DNA of 13,737 nucleotides from Competibacteraceae bacterium UBA2792 (GTDB lineage Bacteria > Pseudomonadota > Gammaproteobacteria > Competibacterales > Competibacteraceae): contig DEHU01000009.1 of the NCBI GenBank assembly GCA_002352125.1, positions 1 to 13,737 on the forward strand, in the 5' to 3' direction. This document shows, one piece after another, positions 1,542 through 12,011 of the stretch (position 1 is its first letter; the number at the start of each line of letters is the position of its first letter). A model generated the notes under the pieces. The model did no database searches, was not told where the DNA came from, and saw only the letters and a list, made by a program, of their open reading frames with translations. The position numbers and the translations under genes were made by a program.

Positions 1542-1631
1542 GGAGAGATGGCCGAGCGGTCGAAGGCGCAGCACTGGAAATGCTGTTTAGGGGTAACTCT
1601 AACGAGGGTTCGAATCCCTCTCTCTCCGCCA
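1542..1631 (+). tRNA. tRNA-Ser (anticodon GGA)
   Basis: This is a 90-nt class II tRNA with encoded CCA. The acceptor stem GGAGAGA (1542-1548) pairs perfectly with TCTCTCC (1621-1627), followed by discriminator G1628 and CCA 1629-1631. The anticodon stem CAGCA/TGCTG (1569-1573 and 1581-1585) encloses the loop CTGGAAA, giving anticodon GGA at 1576-1578, which reads UCC and UCU. A long variable arm follows, as expected for tRNA-Ser. The T arm is GAGGG-TTCGAAT-CCCTC. The gene has its own candidate promoter upstream and a terminator 33 bp downstream, so it appears to be a single-gene transcription unit. Confidence 0.97.
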
Positions 1632-1690: not shown

Positions 1691-1973
1691 GTCCGCCACC
1701 GTCTGTGACCTTCCGCTTCCCATCCAGGATAAGCTTAAGGATGCAACGTAGGATTGCTACCCAGTTCGAGATTCGGCAACCCTTGTTGTTTCCCTCCTTC
1801 AAGGCGTCGAGTGGAGTCCTTCAAAGTGACGCAAGATGCTTTATAGATTCCTGTCTTTAAGTCATAAATCTGGTGTTTGCTGATGAGAATAACGTAATAT
1901 TTTATGCTAAATTAAAAAGTTATCTGGATAATTTCGCGAAAACCCTAACCATCATCCGATAATTTTATTTTTG
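1691..1973 (+). promoter_or_regulatory. Non-coding leader, AT-rich promoter region of the CHASE2 sensor gene
   Basis: I see no credible gene in these 283 bases. From about 1850 the sequence becomes strongly AT-rich, unlike either flank. Two identical GATAATTT boxes (1927-1934 and 1958-1965) lie 31 bp apart, and each begins with GATAAT, a 5/6 match to a sigma-70 -10 box. Another possible -10 is TAATAT at 1895-1900. No good -35 partner is visible for any of them. Starts from the two GATAAT boxes would fall near 1939 and 1970, the second giving an almost leaderless message. No clear Shine-Dalgarno sequence precedes the ATG at 1974. The region probably holds the promoter, but the exact elements are uncertain. 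Confidence 0.4.
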
Positions 1974-4900
1974 ATGTTAATTCGCAACTTCATATACATA
2001 TTGAATTTTCTAAACGGAGCTATTCTTGCCGTCATAGTATCGTTGGTAACTTTTTCATTGCATTTCATTGGCGTTTTTCAGCTTCCCGACGCAGTGATTT
2101 ACGATTTGGCTGTGCGCTACGGTCCCGCCGGATCGGCGATCCCCCGGGTATTGCTCGTCGGGGTTGATCCAGAGGATCGCAACGCTGGCGACCAGACGTG
2201 GTTACGCGTTCTGGACACGCTGGAGAAGCTGGAAGCGCGGCAAATCCTGTTCGCTTTTGTTCCCCCTAACGCCTCGCCAAATTTTTATCGGCGAGCCCTC
2301 GCGATGGATAAAATTGTCTTCGGACGTGGTCTTGTCGCCGACCCGTCCGGCCATCTCGACGAAGCCCGGCTGGAACCGTGGCCGGCAGCGGTCGATGCTC
2401 TCGAACGGGAGCTTCCGTTTGGCGTGGTAGCGGTACCGCCAGCCGACAGGGGTATCTATCGCCGCCAGTACGCTTGGTATGCGCTGCAAGGTCAACCTTA
2501 CCCCGCCCTGGAAGCCCGGGCAGCCAGCCAGTTGGCCGGTGATCGGCCACCTTTGCCGGAACGGTCGTACTGGGTCAATTTTCGAGGCGGCCCGGCCTAT
2601 CTACCGATGGTTACGCTGCAACGGTTGTTGCGGAATGGCCTGATCCCCGAGCTGGTTCGGGGGCGAAGCGTTCTGATCGGTTTACTGCCCTCGCCCCAGA
2701 CGCCGAGCCTGCACACCCCTCTCGACCAGCCGCCCGATGCCGGTATGACGTTGCTGGCGTTTCAGGGTTATGCGCTCGAAACCCTGCTTCGCGACCAGCC
2801 GATCCGGCCGTTGTCGGCGCCGGTTGTCCTCGCCATTCTGGCCGTGGTGGTTTTCGCCAACCTCATCGTTTATCAGTGGGGATGGCTACGCTTCGGGTTG
2901 TGGGTGACCGGCGCCTTTCTGGCAGCCTACGCGGCATCGGCTTGGCTGGCGTTGTACGCGCAACGGTGGCCGCCGGTGACGGCTCTGATCGTGGTCCAAG
3001 CGGCGGTCTTTGCCGTGGTGTTTTGGCATAAATCGCTGGTTCAAGATAGGGCGCTGCGTTCGCTCGTCGTCGATCTGGCGAGCCGATCGCGCGAGCAGGC
3101 CATACTGCCCGGATTCTACGCATCCCCCGAGCCTTGGAACCAAGTTGTCGAACTGGTTCGGCAAACGCTCGACCTTGGCTGGCTGATCTTCCTGGAGCGC
3201 ATTCCCGACCAATATTACGTCCGGGAAATCGCTGCGCTGAATTGTCGGTTCGCCGATATCGACGAGCGCCGCCGGGATTACCGGCGAGTACCCTACAGCG
3301 ACGCCGTGGCCGAACGCCAGACCGTGCGGTTAGAGCAGCGTCTGTTTCTGAAAGCGGATTCCGCTATCGATCAATATATGACGCCGCTGCTGTTCGGCGG
3401 CGAGCTGTTGGGGTTCTGGGCGATGGGCGTCTCGCCTGACAAGGTTGCGGCCAATCCCGATTTTTTCGTGCTGGTGGACGATATTCGCGATCAGATTGCC
3501 GAAATGCTCTATCACCGTTTGCAATGGCAGCAGCAGCAGACATCGCAAACCAGCGGCGAAAGATTCCGATACTTGCGGCTCGATGGCGGCGAGAATTTGC
3601 ATCACGCGCTGCAGCAGGCGTTGCGAGTGTTCGAAAGACGGCTGCTCAGACTGGAGCGGGTTTTCCAAGAGATGGAAACCGCCGCCATTTTTTACAATCC
3701 CTTCGGGCGGGTTCTGCAAGCCAATGAAGCGATGGCCGCGATCCTGCGGCAAGGCCAACTGCCGGCTTACGAGATGACTGCTCTGGATTTGTTGAGCACG
3801 CTCTGCGGTATCGACCTTTCCGAAGGGCGGCAAGCCTTGCGGCGGGTTTTCGTCGATCACCAGACGGTGACCTTGCCCGCCGATGTGCCCGGCGATACCC
3901 GGCACCGCTATACCTTGCGCGCTCAGCCGGTTCTAGCGGCCGAAGGTGCGCGGTTGCCCGACGAAGCGGCGGAAGCGCTTCCGTTCCAGCTCCAGGGTGT
4001 TCTCATCGAACTGTTCGACGTGACGACTTTGCACAATCTGAGCCTAGTCAAGACCGAATTGACGGCGCGGGTTCACGAGCAACTGCGCGATCATCTTCAG
4101 GCGATGGTTTTGGCAACGGATTTGCGCGAGGCGGAACAATCCCAGGAACGCGGTCGGCAATCGGTACGGTTGATCCTGCGCCAGCAGGTGGAAACGGCTG
4201 TAGCCCTACTCAACCGGGCGCAAAAATATTTGCTGACCGATTTGATTGCGTTGCAGCAATTCGATCGCTATCCGGTCGAGCCGCGGGCACCGTTGCGCGC
4301 GGCGCTAGCGGAACTGTCCAGACAGATGGATGAGCGGCAGGTGCGGACAGCGGTGGACATGCCGGAACTGCTCAGCTTGGTGATGGCCGATTCCGATGCC
4401 TTGCGGGAAGCCTTGGAAACGCTGTTGGCGGTGCTGATCGAGGACGCGATGGTCGGCAGTCAATTGACGATCAAATTGCGGGAACAGGCGGGATGGCTGG
4501 TTTACGAGTTGCGCAATCAGGGGTTCGGCATGCCCAACGCCAAGTTCCAGTCTTGGCTGGGCCGTGACGACAGCGAAGCCACGCCACTGTTTCGGCGGCT
4601 GCGAGCGGTCCGGCGCCGGATCGTGGATTGGCAGGGTGTATTGCAGGGCTCCAGCGCGCTGGGCGATGGCGTGCGGTTCGTGCTGCGCCTGCCGTGCTTT
4701 GGGGGCGAGGAGCGAGGCGAAGGCGACGACACCACGCGCAGCCAGTTGTATCTGGCGCAGGCCGAAAACAAACGGATTTTAGTGGTGGACGACAGCAAGA
4801 TGATCCAGAGGTTAGTCACCTGGTCCTTGCGGAAAGAGGGGTACGATGCCCGCGCCGCCGCCGACGGCCAGCGGGCGATTGCGGTGTTGCAAGCGTGGAT

Positions 4901-5150
4901 GCCGGATCTCATCGTGCTGGACATGATGATGCCGGTCATGGACGGCTTGCAGTTTCTGGAGTGGCGCAACCAGTATCATCCGCGCCTGCCGGTTTTGGCG
5001 CTGACGGGCATGGAGCGTCCAGACGTCGAAGAGCAGATTCTGGCAGCCGGCGCCGATGCCGTGCTGTTCAAGCCGATGCATGTGCCGGAGTTGCTGGCCA
5101 AGGTCAAGCGGTTGTTGGACCTTGGCGATGCGCCGCCAACTGCTCATTGA
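1974..5150 (+). CDS. CHASE2-domain membrane sensor, hybrid histidine-kinase-like protein with C-terminal receiver
   Basis: Predicted inner-membrane signalling protein of 1058 residues. A first membrane helix (about 14-35) leads into a CHASE2-type extracytoplasmic sensor domain (about 36-270), with the typical start DLAVRYGPAG...PRVLLVGVD. Three hydrophobic helices follow (about 280-300, 305-328, 334-351), the usual CHASE2 topology. The cytoplasmic part shows a GAF-like region (about 385-510), a PAS-like region (about 560-690), a kinase-like core and a receiver domain (about 934-1050). The receiver is intact: acidic pair D939/D940, phospho-acceptor D983 in LDMMMPVMDG, T1011 and K1033. The kinase core is divergent. 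H701 in TARVHEQLRDHLQA resembles a HisKA_3-type phospho-acceptor site. The N box LIEDAM has Asp where Asn is expected, and the G1 box NQGFG has Asn where Asp is expected, while a G2-like GDGVRFVLRLP is kept. ATG 1974 is preferred over TTG 1971; neither has a clear ribosome site. It may control the downstream operon, but only proximity suggests this. Confidence 0.93.
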   Translation: MLIRNFIYILNFLNGAILAVIVSLVTFSLHFIGVFQLPDAVIYDLAVRYGPAGSAIPRVLLVGVDPEDRNAGDQTWLRVLDTLEKLEARQILFAFVPPNASPNFYRRALAMDKIVFGRGLVADPSGHLDEARLEPWPAAVDALERELPFGVVAVPPADRGIYRRQYAWYALQGQPYPALEARAASQLAGDRPPLPERSYWVNFRGGPAYLPMVTLQRLLRNGLIPELVRGRSVLIGLLPSPQTPSLHTPLDQPPDAGMTLLAFQGYALETLLRDQPIRPLSAPVVLAILAVVVFANLIVYQWGWLRFGLWVTGAFLAAYAASAWLALYAQRWPPVTALIVVQAAVFAVVFWHKSLVQDRALRSLVVDLASRSREQAILPGFYASPEPWNQVVELVRQTLDLGWLIFLERIPDQYYVREIAALNCRFADIDERRRDYRRVPYSDAVAERQTVRLEQRLFLKADSAIDQYMTPLLFGGELLGFWAMGVSPDKVAANPDFFVLVDDIRDQIAEMLYHRLQWQQQQTSQTSGERFRYLRLDGGENLHHALQQALRVFERRLLRLERVFQEMETAAIFYNPFGRVLQANEAMAAILRQGQLPAYEMTALDLLSTLCGIDLSEGRQALRRVFVDHQTVTLPADVPGDTRHRYTLRAQPVLAAEGARLPDEAAEALPFQLQGVLIELFDVTTLHNLSLVKTELTARVHEQLRDHLQAMVLATDLREAEQSQERGRQSVRLILRQQVETAVALLNRAQKYLLTDLIALQQFDRYPVEPRAPLRAALAELSRQMDERQVRTAVDMPELLSLVMADSDALREALETLLAVLIEDAMVGSQLTIKLREQAGWLVYELRNQGFGMPNAKFQSWLGRDDSEATPLFRRLRAVRRRIVDWQGVLQGSSALGDGVRFVLRLPCFGGEERGEGDDTTRSQLYLAQAENKRILVVDDSKMIQRLVTWSLRKEGYDARAAADGQRAIAVLQAWMPDLIVLDMMMPVMDGLQFLEWRNQYHPRLPVLALTGMERPDVEEQILAAGADAVLFKPMHVPELLAKVKRLLDLGDAPPTAH

Positions 5151-5341: not shown

Positions 5342-8300
5342 ATGCCCGTGGCGCTGTTTCCCGAAAGCTTGGCCAGTTCCGTTGCCACCACGGTCTGGGT
5401 CGGCGTGATGGTGGCGGTGTTTTGCACCCTGCGTTTCGGCTGGAATTTGTCTGGGCTGGTGGTGCCCGGCTACATGACACCCCTGCTGCTGGTCAAGCCG
5501 TTGTCGGCGGCAGTGGTGTTCGCCGAGGGCGTCATCACCTACCTGCTGGTGCACGGTTTTTCGGAGCGCTGTTCCCGCTTTGGCGCTTGGAGCAGCCTGT
5601 TCGGGCGGGATCGCTTCTTCGGGCTGGTACTGGTCAGCGTGGCGGTGCGGCTGGTCGGCGACGGCTGGCTGTGGCCGGCGGTGGGCGAGCTTTGGAGCGA
5701 TTACTTTCACGCGGACTTCGATTATCGTGGCGAGCTGCACAGCTTTGGCTTGATCGTCGTATCGTTGATTGCCAACCAATTTTGGAAGACGGGCATACGC
5801 GGCGGGTGGATGCCGGTGTTCGCGACGGTCGGCCTGACTTTTCTGATCGTCCGCTATGGCCTGATGGAATTCACCAATTTCAGCATCGCCAACCTGAGCT
5901 ACGCCTACAACGATCTGGCCGCCTCGCTGCTGGCCACGCCCAAGGCGTACATCGTGCTGCTGACCACCGCTTTCCTGGCCTCGCGCATGAACCTTTACTA
6001 CGGCTGGGAATTCAACGGCATCCTGATTCCGTCGCTGCTGGCATTGCAGTGGTATCAGCCGGCCAAAATCCTCACTTCCTTCCTGGAAGCCTTCCTCATT
6101 CTAGGCGTGGCCCGCCTGCTGTTTAGAATTCCCGCCGTCGCCGGCTTGCACCTGGAAGGACCGCGTCAACTGCTATTTTTCTTCAATCTAGGGTTTTGCT
6201 ACAAGTTAGCGCTCGGCTGGTTGTTGCCGCTGGTGTGGCCGACGGTGCTGGTCGGGGACGCTTATGGGTTTGGTTATCTGCTCACCACTCTGGTCGCCAT
6301 GCGGATGCACGACAAGGAAATCATCGCCCGGCTGACACGCGCCACGCTACAAACCTCGCTGGTGGCGGTCGGGGTCGCCAGCGTGCTGGGGTTCGCGCTC
6401 GCGCTCCTGTCAGAGCATCGGCCGTGGTTGGAGCAGCCGGCGGTCGGGACCGGGGCGATCGTCCGGTCGGCCTCGCGCCCGCTCTCGGAACTGCTGAGCG
6501 ATGACAGCGTGCGGCTTCGCCGTTTCTGGTTGCAAGTCGGTGCGCCGGTACCGCTGCCGACGGAGCTAGCGGCGTTCGAGGCGGGCATCGAGCAATTGCG
6601 GGCGTATCTGGGCGGCGACCGGACCGCTCTCGACCGTGCCGCCGAGCGGTTGGCCGTCGCCAGATATCGGATTGACTGGGTAGAGCGGCGCTATCTCTAT
6701 CTGCATGAAGAGGAGCCGGCGCGCGGCTGGGGGTTTTACGTGCTCGATACCCGTGCCGCCAACAACCTGGTGGTCGAAGTCCCGGCGCCGCTGGACGAGC
6801 AGGGCACGCTGGCTGCCGCCAGCGGGCTGTTCGGTGCCTTGGAAGGGCGGGCGCTGGCGGTTGCGGGTGCCCAGCGCGCCATCAATCCCAACGGGTCGCT
6901 GGATGTGTTGCGTAGCTGGGACACGCCGTTCCATCGGTTCCATCAAGTCATGGCGCGACGGGATGTATTGCAGGTGCGCGCCTATACGACCCGGAGCAGC
7001 GAAGCGCTGGCCGGCGTGCCGGCCGGGGCGTTCCGGGCGGGAACGATGTCGCCGCCCACCACCCTATGGGTGCGGGCCAGCCTGCCGCCGAGCTTGGATC
7101 TTGCGCGGTTGCGAGGATTGGTCGATGAACTGCCGGTCAACTGGACCAGCACGCCGTCGGCCAATTTGCAGCGGGAGACGAGCGAGGGCGGGTTTGCCGA
7201 ACTGGTGCTCAACCGCGTCGATCTGCGCCGGTTGCGGCTGTCCGTCCGGATCGCTCCCCAGGCCGAGGCGATGTTGCGAGTGGGAGATATCCGGATCGAC
7301 GGTTATCTGCGGGAATGGCTGCTGGCCGACAAGCAGCGTTTGGCTGGACGCGGCACCGACCGGTACCGTCCGCCGCGACTGGAAGATTTGCTGTATTTCG
7401 ACGAGGAGATCTTGACGCCTTTGTTGAGCCTGTCGCGGAGCGGCCGCCCGAACGGCGAATGGAGCGCAGCGGGGCTGGCGGAATTGCACGCGCTCACCGG
7501 CGCCGCCCAGGCGGTGGGTTACAAGCTGTTGCGGTACCGCCATTGGGCCAGCGGCCAAGAATATTTGGTTCTGGCCGAGGACGAGGCCAGCGGCGAACGC
7601 CGTTACTGGGGAACCTACGTCTTCCGGCTGGCGGCGGGGCAAAATTATCTGGTGGCGGTTCCGCATCCCCTGTTCGAGATCAACAGTTTCGAGTACGGCG
7701 TCTCCCTGTTCGAGCGGATGCAGGCGAACGTTCTGTTGCTGGCAGGTGCTCATCCCCAGGCCAACCGGGATGGCACTGCCGACGTGACGGCCGCCGCCAA
7801 CGCCAGCAGTCTGTTCACGCTGGTCGGTCAAGTGGTATTGCGGGAGGCTGGGGACGCGCCCTGGCTGATCGTGAGCGTGCGGGCCTATGGCGTCCGGCCG
7901 GAGACGCCGGCGCCGACCGCCGATGCGGTGCTGGCCTGGAGTGGCGGAGCGGCAAGGCCGGATTCTCTCGGCCCGCTGGGGCGGCAGTTGCTGGCCGCGC
8001 TGAACGAGGATGGCCTGAGCGTGCGGTTCGCGGATGGCGCTCCCGAGACCGCCGGTTACGAAGCGGCTGGCTCGCCGCAGGCGCGCTATCTCAACGCTGC
8101 GGTCAATAAGGAGTTCTGCACGGTTTGGTTGTCGCCGCTGGTCCGGGCCACCTTAAGCCAGCAGGGCGAAAATGCCGCGCAGGAAATTCAGTTCGCGGTG
8201 TTGGGAATTCCCACCCGGCAAGACGATCTCTATCGCTATCTTGCCAGCCTGCCGGTCACGGTCGAAGGTACGCCGCCGGCCTGGCGGGAAGCGGTGCGGG

Positions 8301-8560
8301 CTTACGTCGAACGGCGCGATATCCTCAATCTGCGTCAGTTGCGCGATTGGCCGGGGTTCCGCTACGAGCGTCTGATCGACCGCGACACGCAGCAAGCGTT
8401 TCTGTTGGCGCTCGATGGCGCCGGCCGCCTGCGGTTGGCGGTGAATCTGACGCCGCGCCAGCCGGATGCCGAAGTGGTCGCCAGCATACCGCCGCAGGCC
8501 ATCGAGGTGGAGCGGTTTAAGAGCGCCCAGGCGATCTGGCTGCTGTTTAGCGCGCCATGA
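5342..8560 (+). CDS. Tandem CapC/PgsC-type membrane protein fused to two hydrolase-like soluble domains
   Basis: A 1072-residue protein. Residues 1-355 are strongly hydrophobic and match the CapC/PgsC family, the small membrane subunit of poly-gamma-glutamate synthesis and export, usually about 150 residues. The family signature GLVVPGY is at 38-44, and FGLIVVSLIANQFWKTGI at 135-152 fits its second conserved block. The module seems duplicated: GILIPSL (226-232) and FGYLLTTLVAMRMHDKEI (310-327) repeat the same two blocks. About 710 soluble residues follow, probably periplasmic. Two related domains lie there (about 390-635 and 660-935), both similar to the whole secreted product of the gene starting at 11064. 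They have lost most or all of its candidate catalytic residues: A482, R524, R546 and V622 in the first; A817, R847 and W929 in the second, which keeps H775. A C-terminal region (about 940-1072) is unrecognised. The start at ATG 5342 places the CapC motif as in the family, although the ribosome site is weak. The stop overlaps the next start (ATGA). CapC identity is probable; the polymer handled is unknown. Confidence 0.85.
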   Translation: MPVALFPESLASSVATTVWVGVMVAVFCTLRFGWNLSGLVVPGYMTPLLLVKPLSAAVVFAEGVITYLLVHGFSERCSRFGAWSSLFGRDRFFGLVLVSVAVRLVGDGWLWPAVGELWSDYFHADFDYRGELHSFGLIVVSLIANQFWKTGIRGGWMPVFATVGLTFLIVRYGLMEFTNFSIANLSYAYNDLAASLLATPKAYIVLLTTAFLASRMNLYYGWEFNGILIPSLLALQWYQPAKILTSFLEAFLILGVARLLFRIPAVAGLHLEGPRQLLFFFNLGFCYKLALGWLLPLVWPTVLVGDAYGFGYLLTTLVAMRMHDKEIIARLTRATLQTSLVAVGVASVLGFALALLSEHRPWLEQPAVGTGAIVRSASRPLSELLSDDSVRLRRFWLQVGAPVPLPTELAAFEAGIEQLRAYLGGDRTALDRAAERLAVARYRIDWVERRYLYLHEEEPARGWGFYVLDTRAANNLVVEVPAPLDEQGTLAAASGLFGALEGRALAVAGAQRAINPNGSLDVLRSWDTPFHRFHQVMARRDVLQVRAYTTRSSEALAGVPAGAFRAGTMSPPTTLWVRASLPPSLDLARLRGLVDELPVNWTSTPSANLQRETSEGGFAELVLNRVDLRRLRLSVRIAPQAEAMLRVGDIRIDGYLREWLLADKQRLAGRGTDRYRPPRLEDLLYFDEEILTPLLSLSRSGRPNGEWSAAGLAELHALTGAAQAVGYKLLRYRHWASGQEYLVLAEDEASGERRYWGTYVFRLAAGQNYLVAVPHPLFEINSFEYGVSLFERMQANVLLLAGAHPQANRDGTADVTAAANASSLFTLVGQVVLREAGDAPWLIVSVRAYGVRPETPAPTADAVLAWSGGAARPDSLGPLGRQLLAALNEDGLSVRFADGAPETAGYEAAGSPQARYLNAAVNKEFCTVWLSPLVRATLSQQGENAAQEIQFAVLGIPTRQDDLYRYLASLPVTVEGTPPAWREAVRAYVERRDILNLRQLRDWPGFRYERLIDRDTQQAFLLALDGAGRLRLAVNLTPRQPDAEVVASIPPQAIEVERFKSAQAIWLLFSAP

Positions 8561-11067
8561 TCCGCTTTCTGGGCCATCTCCTGCGCCGCTTGCTCCTGCT
8601 CGGCGCGCTCGGCTGGGTAGCCTGGTGGGTTTGGCCATCGCTGGAAACCCTCCGGCAGCGTTTCGATCTGAGCGGCATGGCCGATGCAGATCTGGCGCGG
8701 TTCGTCGACGCGATGCCCGACATCGCGTACCCGCTGGAAGACGAACGCTGGATAGAATTTTCTATTCCCGGCCAAGGCGGCAGCCTCAAGGTGGTGAGCA
8801 ACGCCAACCTGGATGCCCAGCAAGCGGCGCAACCCGGCATCGAATGGCGCTACGCGCTCCATTACCAGCTTGTGGACGGCTCGGGCCGGTTGCTGAAAGA
8901 CGCTATCTATCACCATCGAACGACGGTGAGCTGGTACCGGCCGCCGGGCGAGCCCCGACCGCTGACGGCGGCATTCTATCTAGATCGCCAGATCGTTCCC
9001 GCCGACGGCCGCGTGCTGATGATCGACCTTGCAGAAACTCCCGGCGCGGCGTGGTTGCGGCTGGGGTTGGCCAGCCGTGCGCCCGAAATCGAAAGTGTGG
9101 TGGCGCGGGTGTACACCCGGCAACACCTGTTCGACCCGCCCGCCGCTTTGCGCTGGCAGCGCATCGCCCGCCACCAACAGGAGGCGCTGGCGCGAGCCAG
9201 CATCTATGGTCCGGAGCTGCTTCGCCAGAGCGAGCAGATCCAACTGTTGCGCCAACGTTGGAATCCGGTTGGCCCGATTGGGATCGAGGGCCGGGATTAT
9301 CGGACCTACCGGCTTTACGGTGCGCTCAACATCGAAGCGGAGCCGTTGCGGCAACCGGTCATGCCGACGGGTTTGTACGTGGATCGCGACCTGCGCGGCA
9401 CGCTGCCGATTCCGGAGCCAGGTGGTTGGGTCACCTTGGAGTTTTCGGAGATCGATCCGGCACTGAGCGGGGCTGGCACCGGCGGCGCGGCTGCCCCGGC
9501 CCAAGCCGAGGCGGAATTGGTTTGGCATGGCCGCCAGCCCGGCCCACCCGTCATCTATCGGGTTTCTCTGAACGGATCATCGGCCACTCTCTGGTTGGAG
9601 AAGCTGGGCGCCGGTCTGCTGGAGGTGGTGGCGCCGCGCCCGCTCATCGTGAACGCAGCCGGCTATTGGACGGTTGGCGAACCGCTCGATTTGTTGCCGG
9701 CACCGCTGTATTTGCGGCTGTACCGGCTGCAACCGGATTTGCCGCTGGAATTCGCCATCGCGCACGTTGATGGACAGCCTACGCTCTGGCGGGTGGATTT
9801 GCGGTTGGCCGCGCCGGGCTCGGCCACCGAGGCGATGGTGCATTACGAGTGGCTCGACTCGCGCGGTGCGACGTTGCGCCAGGGAAACTTGGTCCCGAAC
9901 GGCGCGGCATCCCTCTACGACCGGCTGCTGGATGGGACCATATTGGCCGGACGCGTTTCCGAAGCCGCCACCTATGGGTTCGCCTTACCAGCGACGGTGG
10001 CCCGGGTGCGTTTAACGGCGACCGCTGCCCCGGTGTTGGCGAACGCTTATACCCGGCCAGTTGACTTGCGGCGCGAGCTGCGGGCGCCGGAAGATTATCA
10101 GCCTGTCAGCGCGGGAGAAACGCGCGGTCAACCCGTGTGGTTTCCGGTATTGCCGCTGGCGGCGACAGCGTGGATGCAGGACGGCCGGACGGTTCTGCTC
10201 GACAAGCAGACCCGTCCTCCTCAACGCGACCCGGAGATCTTGGCGGGGCGCTACGATTGGGAGGATTATTACCCCGATGGCGACTGGCGGGGCCGCTATC
10301 TGCTCAACCCGCGCGACCCGCAAGCCCCGCTGCGCGATCTGGCCCTGGGTGCAGTGTTCCAACCGCTGGCGGCCGGGACTCCGGTGCGGCTGGAACTGCG
10401 CGGCCCGCCGGGCCGGACGGCGGTGGCGCCCACCTTCTTGGTGTTGCGCGATACCGAGCGGCCCGATTTGGTGCAAATTAGCGTGGACGGTCAGCCGGTT
10501 TTCGCCGAGATGCTGGTGCTGCGGCGCGCGCAACTGCGATTGCCGCCGTTACCGGTCGGTGCCCACACGGTGCTGGTGCAGGGCGCGGGACCGGCCCGCT
10601 GGTTTGTCAATTACGCTGGCGGCGGAGCCGGTAGCCTGAACCGGCGGTTGGCCTATCGCCTGGATCGGGAGGGGCTAGAGTTCGTCTACGCCAAGACCAG
10701 CCCGGACATGGACGTGTTATCCGGCGTTTTGCAGACGCCGTTCGGCACCGGCCGGCGCGCTCGTTTGCGGGCGACGGTGCAAATGCCGGGTAGCGCCCGC
10801 CCGGGGCCATTCACCCGGCCGACCGTGCGCGAGTGGCTGTACGACCTGCGACCCGACAACGGCAGTCCGGTGCCGGTGCTGGATACGCCTACCGAACAGG
10901 CGGGTTTGGGGCAACGGTTTTTTTTGCCGCTGGGCGACGACGCGCCGCCCGGCGGCTATCGAATCCGGCTGTGGCTGGAAGAAGGCAGCGGATATCTGAC
11001 GCTCTATCGGGTGACGCCGGGCCTGCCGGCGGTGCTCGAACTGTTCAGCGAAGAAGGGCGGCTGTGA
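8557..11067 (+). CDS. Membrane-anchored, beta-rich envelope protein of unknown function
   Basis: I do not recognise this 836-residue protein. It begins MIRFLGHLLRR followed by one hydrophobic stretch (about residues 11-28, LLLLGALGWVAWWVWPSL), which looks like an uncleaved N-in anchor that leaves about 800 residues in the periplasm. The remainder has alternating hydrophobic and polar residues with many Gly, Pro and aromatic turns, as in stacked beta-sandwich domains. There is no obvious enzyme motif. Notable segments are YDWEDYYPDGDW starting at residue 566, and VDGQPVF (643-649) followed by LRLPPLPVGAHTVLV. The latter resembles VDG...LELPDGDHELTL in the gene starting at 12008. The start codon overlaps the stop of the CapC-like gene (ATGA at 8557-8560), and the end overlaps the next start (GTGA at 11064-11067). 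A structural or polymer-binding role next to the CapC-like protein is inferred from context only. Confidence 0.88.
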   Translation: MIRFLGHLLRRLLLLGALGWVAWWVWPSLETLRQRFDLSGMADADLARFVDAMPDIAYPLEDERWIEFSIPGQGGSLKVVSNANLDAQQAAQPGIEWRYALHYQLVDGSGRLLKDAIYHHRTTVSWYRPPGEPRPLTAAFYLDRQIVPADGRVLMIDLAETPGAAWLRLGLASRAPEIESVVARVYTRQHLFDPPAALRWQRIARHQQEALARASIYGPELLRQSEQIQLLRQRWNPVGPIGIEGRDYRTYRLYGALNIEAEPLRQPVMPTGLYVDRDLRGTLPIPEPGGWVTLEFSEIDPALSGAGTGGAAAPAQAEAELVWHGRQPGPPVIYRVSLNGSSATLWLEKLGAGLLEVVAPRPLIVNAAGYWTVGEPLDLLPAPLYLRLYRLQPDLPLEFAIAHVDGQPTLWRVDLRLAAPGSATEAMVHYEWLDSRGATLRQGNLVPNGAASLYDRLLDGTILAGRVSEAATYGFALPATVARVRLTATAAPVLANAYTRPVDLRRELRAPEDYQPVSAGETRGQPVWFPVLPLAATAWMQDGRTVLLDKQTRPPQRDPEILAGRYDWEDYYPDGDWRGRYLLNPRDPQAPLRDLALGAVFQPLAAGTPVRLELRGPPGRTAVAPTFLVLRDTERPDLVQISVDGQPVFAEMLVLRRAQLRLPPLPVGAHTVLVQGAGPARWFVNYAGGGAGSLNRRLAYRLDREGLEFVYAKTSPDMDVLSGVLQTPFGTGRRARLRATVQMPGSARPGPFTRPTVREWLYDLRPDNGSPVPVLDTPTEQAGLGQRFFLPLGDDAPPGGYRIRLWLEEGSGYLTLYRVTPGLPAVLELFSEEGRL

Positions 11068-12011
11068 AAAAAATCGACGAAAAGCGCCAAAATTTCCGAG
11101 GAAAACCGGTTTCGGAGCGAAAAAAAGCTATTGGGCGACGCTGGCGCGGCTGGCTGGCCGTCTTGCTGGCGTTATCGGCGCCAGCGCTCGCCGCCCGCCC
11201 GGCGACCCTAGAGAGCCTGTTCCGGGACAGCCAGGGCCGTGATTATCAGCCGCCATCTCCAGACGAACTGCGCCAGGCCGAGCAGCTCTTCCAACGCGCG
11301 TTCGCTGGCCAGGTCGAGACGGCGGACTGGGCGGCGCTGGGTTTCCAGGTGGAGCGATTGACCGAACAGGGCGGCGTTTTGACCGTGATCCGGGAATCGC
11401 CCGACCAGCGGCGCGGGCGTGGTTTTTACGCCTTCGCCGCTCCGCTGGCCGGCGCTCCGATCCTGCAAGCACCGCACGCTTTGAGCGACCGGTATACCGG
11501 TATCATCGCCGTTAAGCTGTTCGCCAGCGGCCGTTTCGCCGCCGGAGCTTGGAGCACCGCGCCGCGCGCGTATCAGGACGACGATGAGGACGTGGACGCC
11601 GACATGGCTCACCGGCCGGACAGCTACTTCGTGGCCTTCAGTCGCGCCGCCGCCGTGTCCCGGCCGGCCGGGGCCGTCATCCAGTTGCACGGATTCGCCG
11701 CCGAGAAGCGCAAAACCGGGGCCGGCCGCAAGGCGGGGGCCATCGTCAGCGCCAGCCAGCGCCAACCGACGCCAGCGGCCGAGGGGATCGCCCGCTGCTT
11801 GGGCGGCGCGTTCGCCGAACCGGTGCTGCTGTATCCCCTTCAAGTCAAGGAATTGGGCGGATTGACCAATCAAATCGCCCAGACCTTGCGAATGTTGGGT
11901 CATTCCGGTTTCGTGCACCTCGAACTGGCGCAGCCGCTGCGGGAACAACTGCATCGGGACGCCGAAGCGCGGCAGCGGTTCGGCACCTGTCTGGCCGGAG
12001 CGCGGCCGTGA
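11064..12011 (+). CDS. Secreted hydrolase-like protein, resembling zinc-dependent poly-gamma-glutamate hydrolases
   Basis: A 315-residue exported protein. The GTG start at 11064 overlaps the previous stop (GTGA) and follows GAAGAAGG about 8 nt upstream. The frame is open further upstream, but only within the preceding gene. A long basic N-region (about 29 residues) leads to a hydrophobic core and ALA-A cleavage site near residues 41-44. The mature part has a pattern similar to the gamma-PGA hydrolase (PghP/DUF867) group of zinc amidohydrolases, as I recall that family. A strand ends in PH (H138), followed by D142 and T145. DMAH...S follows with H183, then QLHGF with H209, and near the C-terminus VHLELAQPLRE with E287, like the LE..RGLR motif of those enzymes. 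H138, D142 and H209 would be metal ligands and E287 the catalytic Glu; this is inference from motif spacing. Two fused copies of the same domain in the gene starting at 5342 lack most of these residues. Gene prediction is firm; enzyme assignment is moderate. Confidence 0.82.
   Translation: MKKIDEKRQNFRGKPVSERKKAIGRRWRGWLAVLLALSAPALAARPATLESLFRDSQGRDYQPPSPDELRQAEQLFQRAFAGQVETADWAALGFQVERLTEQGGVLTVIRESPDQRRGRGFYAFAAPLAGAPILQAPHALSDRYTGIIAVKLFASGRFAAGAWSTAPRAYQDDDEDVDADMAHRPDSYFVAFSRAAAVSRPAGAVIQLHGFAAEKRKTGAGRKAGAIVSASQRQPTPAAEGIARCLGGAFAEPVLLYPLQVKELGGLTNQIAQTLRMLGHSGFVHLELAQPLREQLHRDAEARQRFGTCLAGARP

Follow-up and report, generated by a model that had tools for sequence, protein, structure and literature searches.

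The window analysed here comprises 13,737 nucleotides and is the whole of contig C311 from the genome of Competibacteraceae bacterium UBA2792 (3.59 Mb, 75 % complete); all listed genes lie on its plus strand. It encodes a CapC-type membrane protein whose tail carries two altered hydrolase-like domains and, further downstream, a likely secreted enzyme of the same domain family. The kinship of these three domains, and their possible role in making and exporting polyglutamate, are the subject of this analysis. The features concerned are:

5342..8560, plus strand: C, the CapC fusion protein of 1072 amino acids, consisting of a CapC membrane half, D1, D2 and an unmatched C-terminal part
6464..7291, plus strand: D1, first altered hydrolase-like domain, residues about 375-650 of C, recognised by hhalign to S
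7292..8161, plus strand: D2, second altered hydrolase-like domain, residues about 651-940 of C, recognised by hhalign to S and D1 and by fold matches
8557..11067, plus strand: T, a protein of 836 amino acids with an N-terminal hydrophobic segment (judged by eye) and no known family
11064..12011, plus strand: S, a likely secreted enzyme of 315 amino acids with a zinc-peptidase fold, recognised by structure model, fold matches and conserved residues
12008..13737, plus strand: U, the first 576 amino acids of a protein of about 1830, an open frame cut by the contig end

Consecutive genes among C, T, S and U overlap by 4 bases at each junction (C/T at 8557-8560, T/S at 11064-11067, S/U at 12008-12011), an arrangement like that of a tightly coupled operon.

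A preliminary description of this DNA had aligned the secreted protein by eye with two segments of the CapC protein, and its anchor blocks were found in their places in S, D1 and D2. Comparison of the single sequences by BLASTP gave a strong match for D1-D2 (expectation value, E, 7.9e-12), a weak one for S-D1 (0.004) and a non-significant one for S-D2 (0.17). Family profiles were then compared with hhalign. The alignment for S had 47 rows, namely the S of the window and 46 of the 48 proteins found, after exclusion of P0001, which is the window's S itself, and of P0047, whose match covered 27 %; for hhalign and its controls P0048 was also excluded, leaving 46 rows. The D1 and D2 profiles were built from 121 rows each, comprising the C of the window and 120 listed of at least 136 relatives found among a maximum of 7992 candidates, with 8 rows shorter than 900 amino acids. 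A mutual match was obtained for all three pairs: S-D1 at 98.0 % (E 1.9e-13, 226 columns), S-D2 at 95.9 % (E 5.1e-9, 234 columns) and D1-D2 at 99.6 % (E 2.1e-24, 172 columns). Without insert columns the scores were 90, 62 and 171, respectively, compared with at most 21.4, 22.5 and 22.9 when the columns were shuffled (40 times per pair) and 14.5-18.4 for reversed profiles. The fold matches of S and D2 agree as well. That the three-way likeness is an artefact of composition or of alignment by eye could be argued from the S-D2 BLASTP value taken alone; the shuffles and the reversal rule out composition, the profile matches lie far above these controls, and such an artefact is considered practically negligible.

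The S profile (hmmsearch) also matched the fusion protein in all nine fusion loci examined, at two places in each, with whole-protein E values of 4e-8 to 2e-16 against the open reading frames of those loci. When whole genomes were searched with it, the fusion protein of the window's genome was matched at D2 only (7490-7831, E 3.1e-5), and in genome G140 both fused domains were matched (7.0e-9 and 1.8e-5). On the profile evidence, S, D1 and D2 are one domain family. A third fused copy was sought in residues 936-1072 of C (D3) and rejected, the hhalign probabilities being 0.1 % for S-D3, 0.8 % for D1-D3 and 1.2 % for D2-D3.

The predicted structure of S (mean predicted local distance difference test, pLDDT, 89.0) has the same overall fold as 3a9l and 5onj, i.e. 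PghP and PghL, and S is thus predicted to have the zinc-peptidase fold of these enzymes. The top VIA fold match was 2odf, of the N-formylglutamate amidohydrolase fold, and a viral fold library gave two matches at E <=0.001, both uncharacterised. An export signal judged by eye suggests that S is probably secreted. The preliminary description had called S a PghP/DUF867-type hydrolase, of which the PghP-like fold is supported and the assignment to DUF867 (PF05908) is not. The Pfam scan gave no PF05908 match for S at E <=1, and PF05908 is absent from the nine families matched by any of the 47 S sequences at E <=10, a search in which the HMMER filters drop most matches above about 0.1. The sole stretch in which the S profile meets the PF05908 set pairs E287 and R293 of S with Glu165 and Arg171 of PghL; D1 and D2 did not match this set (hhalign 0.2 and 0.1 %), and a genome search found a PF05908 member in 1 of 240 genomes. 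Compared with the gamma-polyglutamate hydrolases PghP and PghL (YndL; MEROPS M86), S has H-x3-D in place of H-x4-E, is longer and likely exported, and is encoded in a synthesis operon. According to passages of PMC6506827, PghP is a phage enzyme and PghL is of phage origin. By sequence, the N-formylglutamate amidohydrolases (PF05013, with the related 2odf and 2q7s) were rejected as a family for S: no Pfam match was found, and there was no profile likeness (hhalign 0.3 % against 25 family members). When the PDB was searched by sequence with the S profile, only chance matches appeared, the best being a centrin (0.063). Four named relatives of S were found, with 62-69 % identity for records from Competibacteraceae, Contendobacter and Proteobacteria and 37 % for one from Acidobacteriota.

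For PghL, the passages of PMC6506827 on its active site give His41, Glu46 and His102 as zinc ligands and Arg171 as substrate anchor, and report that activity was harmed by changes at the PghP counterparts of His41, Glu46, His102, His77 and Glu165. Candidate counterparts in S are highly conserved: H138 in 46 of 47 sequences, and D142, H209, E287 and R293 in 47 of 47, as is N269. At H183, which probably corresponds to His77, 38 of the 47 have His, and the spacing of E287 and R293 (E-x5-R) equals that of Glu165 and Arg171. The proposed equivalence is based on the order of the motifs, on the fold and on the E-x5-R spacing. H138, D142, H209, E287 and R293 were kept in all 12 S-like proteins of the examined loci, which include the S of the window and two free-standing relatives.

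None of the 121 fusion proteins has an intact residue set in D1 or D2. In D1, the first ligand position (A482) is Ala in 101 and His in 0 of 121, the second (E486) Glu in 118, and the third (R546) Arg in 118 and His in 3; the position of the catalytic Glu (V622) is never acidic, with F, V, L or I in 107. In D2, the first position (H775) is Arg in 107 and His in 14, the second (E779) Glu in 118 and Asp in 3, the third (R847) Arg in all 121 and the catalytic-Glu position (W929) Trp in all 121; R935, which corresponds to the Arg that grips the substrate, is conserved in 116. The S-to-D2 profile alignment pairs H209 with S845, and R847 was placed there by the D1-D2 alignment and an anchor block of the preliminary description. 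The residues tabulated in that description (H,H,H,E in S, A,R,R,V in D1 and H,A,R,W in D2) are correct for the window, but the His of D2 is a minority state, and the table omitted the acidic ligand position, which is kept in all three window copies (D142, E486 and E779). The counts support the reading that S carries an intact candidate active site and D1 and D2 altered ones. They also indicate fixed substitutions rather than random loss, and the words 'degenerate' and 'retired' applied earlier to the fused copies are unsupported, since several of the substitutions are fixed across the 121 proteins, the window's included.

A tree of 64 rows, among them 20 of the 47 S rows and 20 of the 121 fusion rows, with P0048 entered twice under two names, was rooted by midpoint only. 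D1 and D2 each formed one clade (support 100/100 and 100/99), and a 99/98 branch separated both from S and its free-standing relatives. From this topology the D1-D2 pair appears old and not a recent copy of the window's S, which refines the gene duplication proposed earlier: one domain in three copies stands, with the fused pair long parted from S. In the simplest reading, a catalytically active ancestral domain, joined to a CapC protein, would have undergone tandem duplication long ago; catalysis would then have been lost in this line and kept in the parallel line of S.

Two free-standing relatives (L055:7978-9354 and L056:8941-10263, the latter with a PKD-like domain) have the intact residue set and no fusion gene in the fetched stretch; both are matched by the S and the C profiles, as S proteins often are. 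The ancestral state may have been similar, and both are possibly enzymes that degrade such polymers.

C meets the CapC model PF14102 in two stretches (E 2.8e-40, 137.9 bits, cut-off 27) and falls below the PgsC equivalog cut-off (TIGR04011, 57.3 bits, cut-off 96.45). Its predicted structure, modelled from an alignment of the window sequence with 70 of the 120 listed relatives, had a pLDDT of 83.6 and a predicted template modelling score (pTM) of 0.62. C is likely a polymer exporter, and a block rich in Lys and Arg before the last helix and, weakly, a low Cys content suggest that its tail faces the periplasm.

On the longer contigs of relatives a further gene, V, comes after C, T, S and U in that order; its product combines HEAT repeats with a ligase domain of PgsB type (TIGR04012, 3.6e-53 in L001 and 6.4e-52 in L003). 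In the window's genome a PgsB-type ligase was found on contig C138 (TIGR04012, 1.7e-55), where 974 amino acids run from the contig edge. All of these ligase matches lie below the equivalog cut-off of 222.7 bits. The presence of the ligase in the same operon of relatives supports the polyglutamate context proposed earlier for S and the CapC protein. In V (L001:16326-20702, L003:16341-20687 and L048) the ligase domain is preceded by just under 800 residues with HEAT repeats, and by eye a hydrophobic segment separates the two. T follows C in all nine fusion loci examined, and S follows T in eight; the exception, genome G052, carries C-T and S-U on separate contigs (L053 and L054), the former running on for 11 kb beyond T without S, so the operon can be split. 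The search for T found 16 proteins, itself included, and neither Pfam nor NCBIfam matched it; T might bridge the periplasm. Full-length relatives of U in L001-L003 have 1817-1842 amino acids; by eye, residues at the end of U show an alternation like that of a barrel in the outer membrane, and no family model matched it above cut-off. In L004, from Acidobacteriota, a CHASE2 gene, C, T and S are present and no recognised U follows S.

Among 299 genomes of the phylum, C was found in 6 (in G221 as two contig pieces), S in 9 and a strong PgsB match in 7; a seventh match to the C profile, in G001, is a free-standing relative. All six genomes with C also have S and the ligase. CapA (PF09587) was found in none of these six, four of which are 75-87 % complete, and in 7 of 14 control genomes. 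Members of the gamma-glutamyltransferase family occur in all six, never on the contig that carries the fusion gene. In genome G077 (L052) S was found but no fusion, and in G185 (L051) the ligase and a portion of U but neither C nor S, patterns possibly due to incompleteness or contamination.

On balance we favour a model in which the altered D1-D2 pair on the CapC protein works near a likely active, probably secreted S, in an operon that probably makes, trims and exports polyglutamate across two membranes. Synthesis of the chain by V would take place in the cytoplasm, and the CapC half of C, matched twice by its model, would convey the chain across the inner membrane. In S, H138, D142 and H209 would hold zinc, E287 would act as base and R293 would grip the glutamate carboxylate, so that S would cut gamma-glutamyl bonds in the periplasm. 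D1 and D2 would hold no catalytic zinc; the Arg-Glu pair at the former metal place would form a polyanion pocket, and we infer polymer binding by D1-D2, holding the growing chain in the periplasm instead of cutting it. The tail would take the chain from the CapC half and hand it to T and U, which would carry it outwards, and S would shorten the chain or clear chains that stray into the periplasm. Two observations lower the confidence in this model slightly: the Cys content gave a mixed result for the side of the tail, and the genome search with the S profile, which scored up to eight candidates per genome, left the fused domains of four of the six fusion genomes unreported. A bolder proposal, put forward tentatively and with more doubt than confidence, is a dedicated polyamide secretion system of two-membraned bacteria. 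Here the exchange of metal-binding His for Arg beside a retained Glu would have turned a cutting site into a carboxylate clamp, the tandem on the exporter would ratchet polyglutamate to an outer-membrane pore, and the active sibling would set chain length.

Pseudoenzymes often scaffold an active relative, and D1 and D2 might instead be regulatory or assembly modules that bind S, T or U and build a trans-envelope complex without touching the polymer. The invariant W929 and R847 could serve such an interface, and the constant placing of T after the fusion gene and, with one exception, of S after T would suit it; a pure scaffold, however, need not keep an acidic residue with a new Arg at the old active site, nor the Arg at R935, and this alternative is judged unlikely. 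Somewhat less so is an amide-linked chain other than polyglutamate, made by the PgsB-like ligase, an idea that draws on the PgsB and PgsC matches below their curated cut-offs and the lack of CapA matches in the six genomes. Gamma-glutamyl chains are favoured, however, by the families closest to the ligase and the membrane protein and by some of the top fold matches of S, and E287-x5-R293 mirrors the glutamate-binding pair of PghL. Less likely than either is that S works on cell-wall peptides instead of the exported chain, as a peptidase or amidase of this fold (MpaA and Csd4 are examples) that serves peptidoglycan or the periplasm in general; against it stand the overlaps of its gene with both operon neighbours, its occurrence with the ligase in every fusion-protein genome and the family it shares with the CapC-protein domains.

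Synthase-dependent export systems with a periplasmic trimming enzyme are known for alginate and cellulose. The favoured model shares with them export through the inner membrane, a likely periplasmic cutter and a likely outer-membrane protein with a long periplasmic part, but its product is likely a polyamide instead of a polysaccharide, and the exporter bears fused domains that are related to the cutter but altered. By analogy, the system would work like a polyglutamate synthase with a periplasmic cutter. With the PgsBCA/CapBCA synthases of Bacillus and others it has in common a CapC-type membrane protein and a PgsB-type ligase; it differs in the twofold CapC match, the D1-D2 tail, the long HEAT-repeat front of the ligase, the CapA family found in none of the six genomes and the additional T, S and U. 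CapA is an accessory part in the operon model outlined in sections of PMC5542703. Parts of PMC4497714 report PgsB/PgsC pairs in 250 bacterial species of 58 genera, and a title cited there records polyglutamate production by the Gram-negative Fusobacterium. CapB and CapC of clam symbionts are reported as gamma-polyglutamate genes in passages of PMC11168628, which mention no domains like D1 or D2. In the literature searched, with most subscription literature outside reach, no account was found of hydrolase-like domains fused to CapC or of dedicated parts that carry polyglutamate through periplasm and outer membrane, and nothing on point for Competibacter polyglutamate or polyglutamate pseudoenzymes. 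The operon offers a testable parts list in which S, T and U gain a proposed job, and, if the model is true, the exchange of metal ligands for arginines in D1-D2 would clearly exemplify how an enzyme becomes a polymer holder.

Upstream of C the window holds the end of a gene that by eye resembles PNPase, and two further features:

1542-1631, plus strand: transfer RNA for serine (tRNA-Ser)
1971..5150, plus strand: sensor protein with CHASE2, HATPase and response-regulator receiver domains, lying upstream of C

In Pfam scans of the latter product, CHASE2 was matched (1e-15) when the N-terminal 376 residues were scanned alone and not in the whole protein; Response_reg reached 3.9e-25, and HATPase_c, at 1.3e-4, lay below its cut-off. 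In two phyla a CHASE2 protein is encoded shortly before the fusion protein (window 1971-5150, L001:1141-3837 and L004:3551-4840) and may sense a signal that controls the operon. The variants differ in domain content, with HATPase and receiver domains in the window, weak kinase-domain matches in L001 and CHASE2 only in L004.
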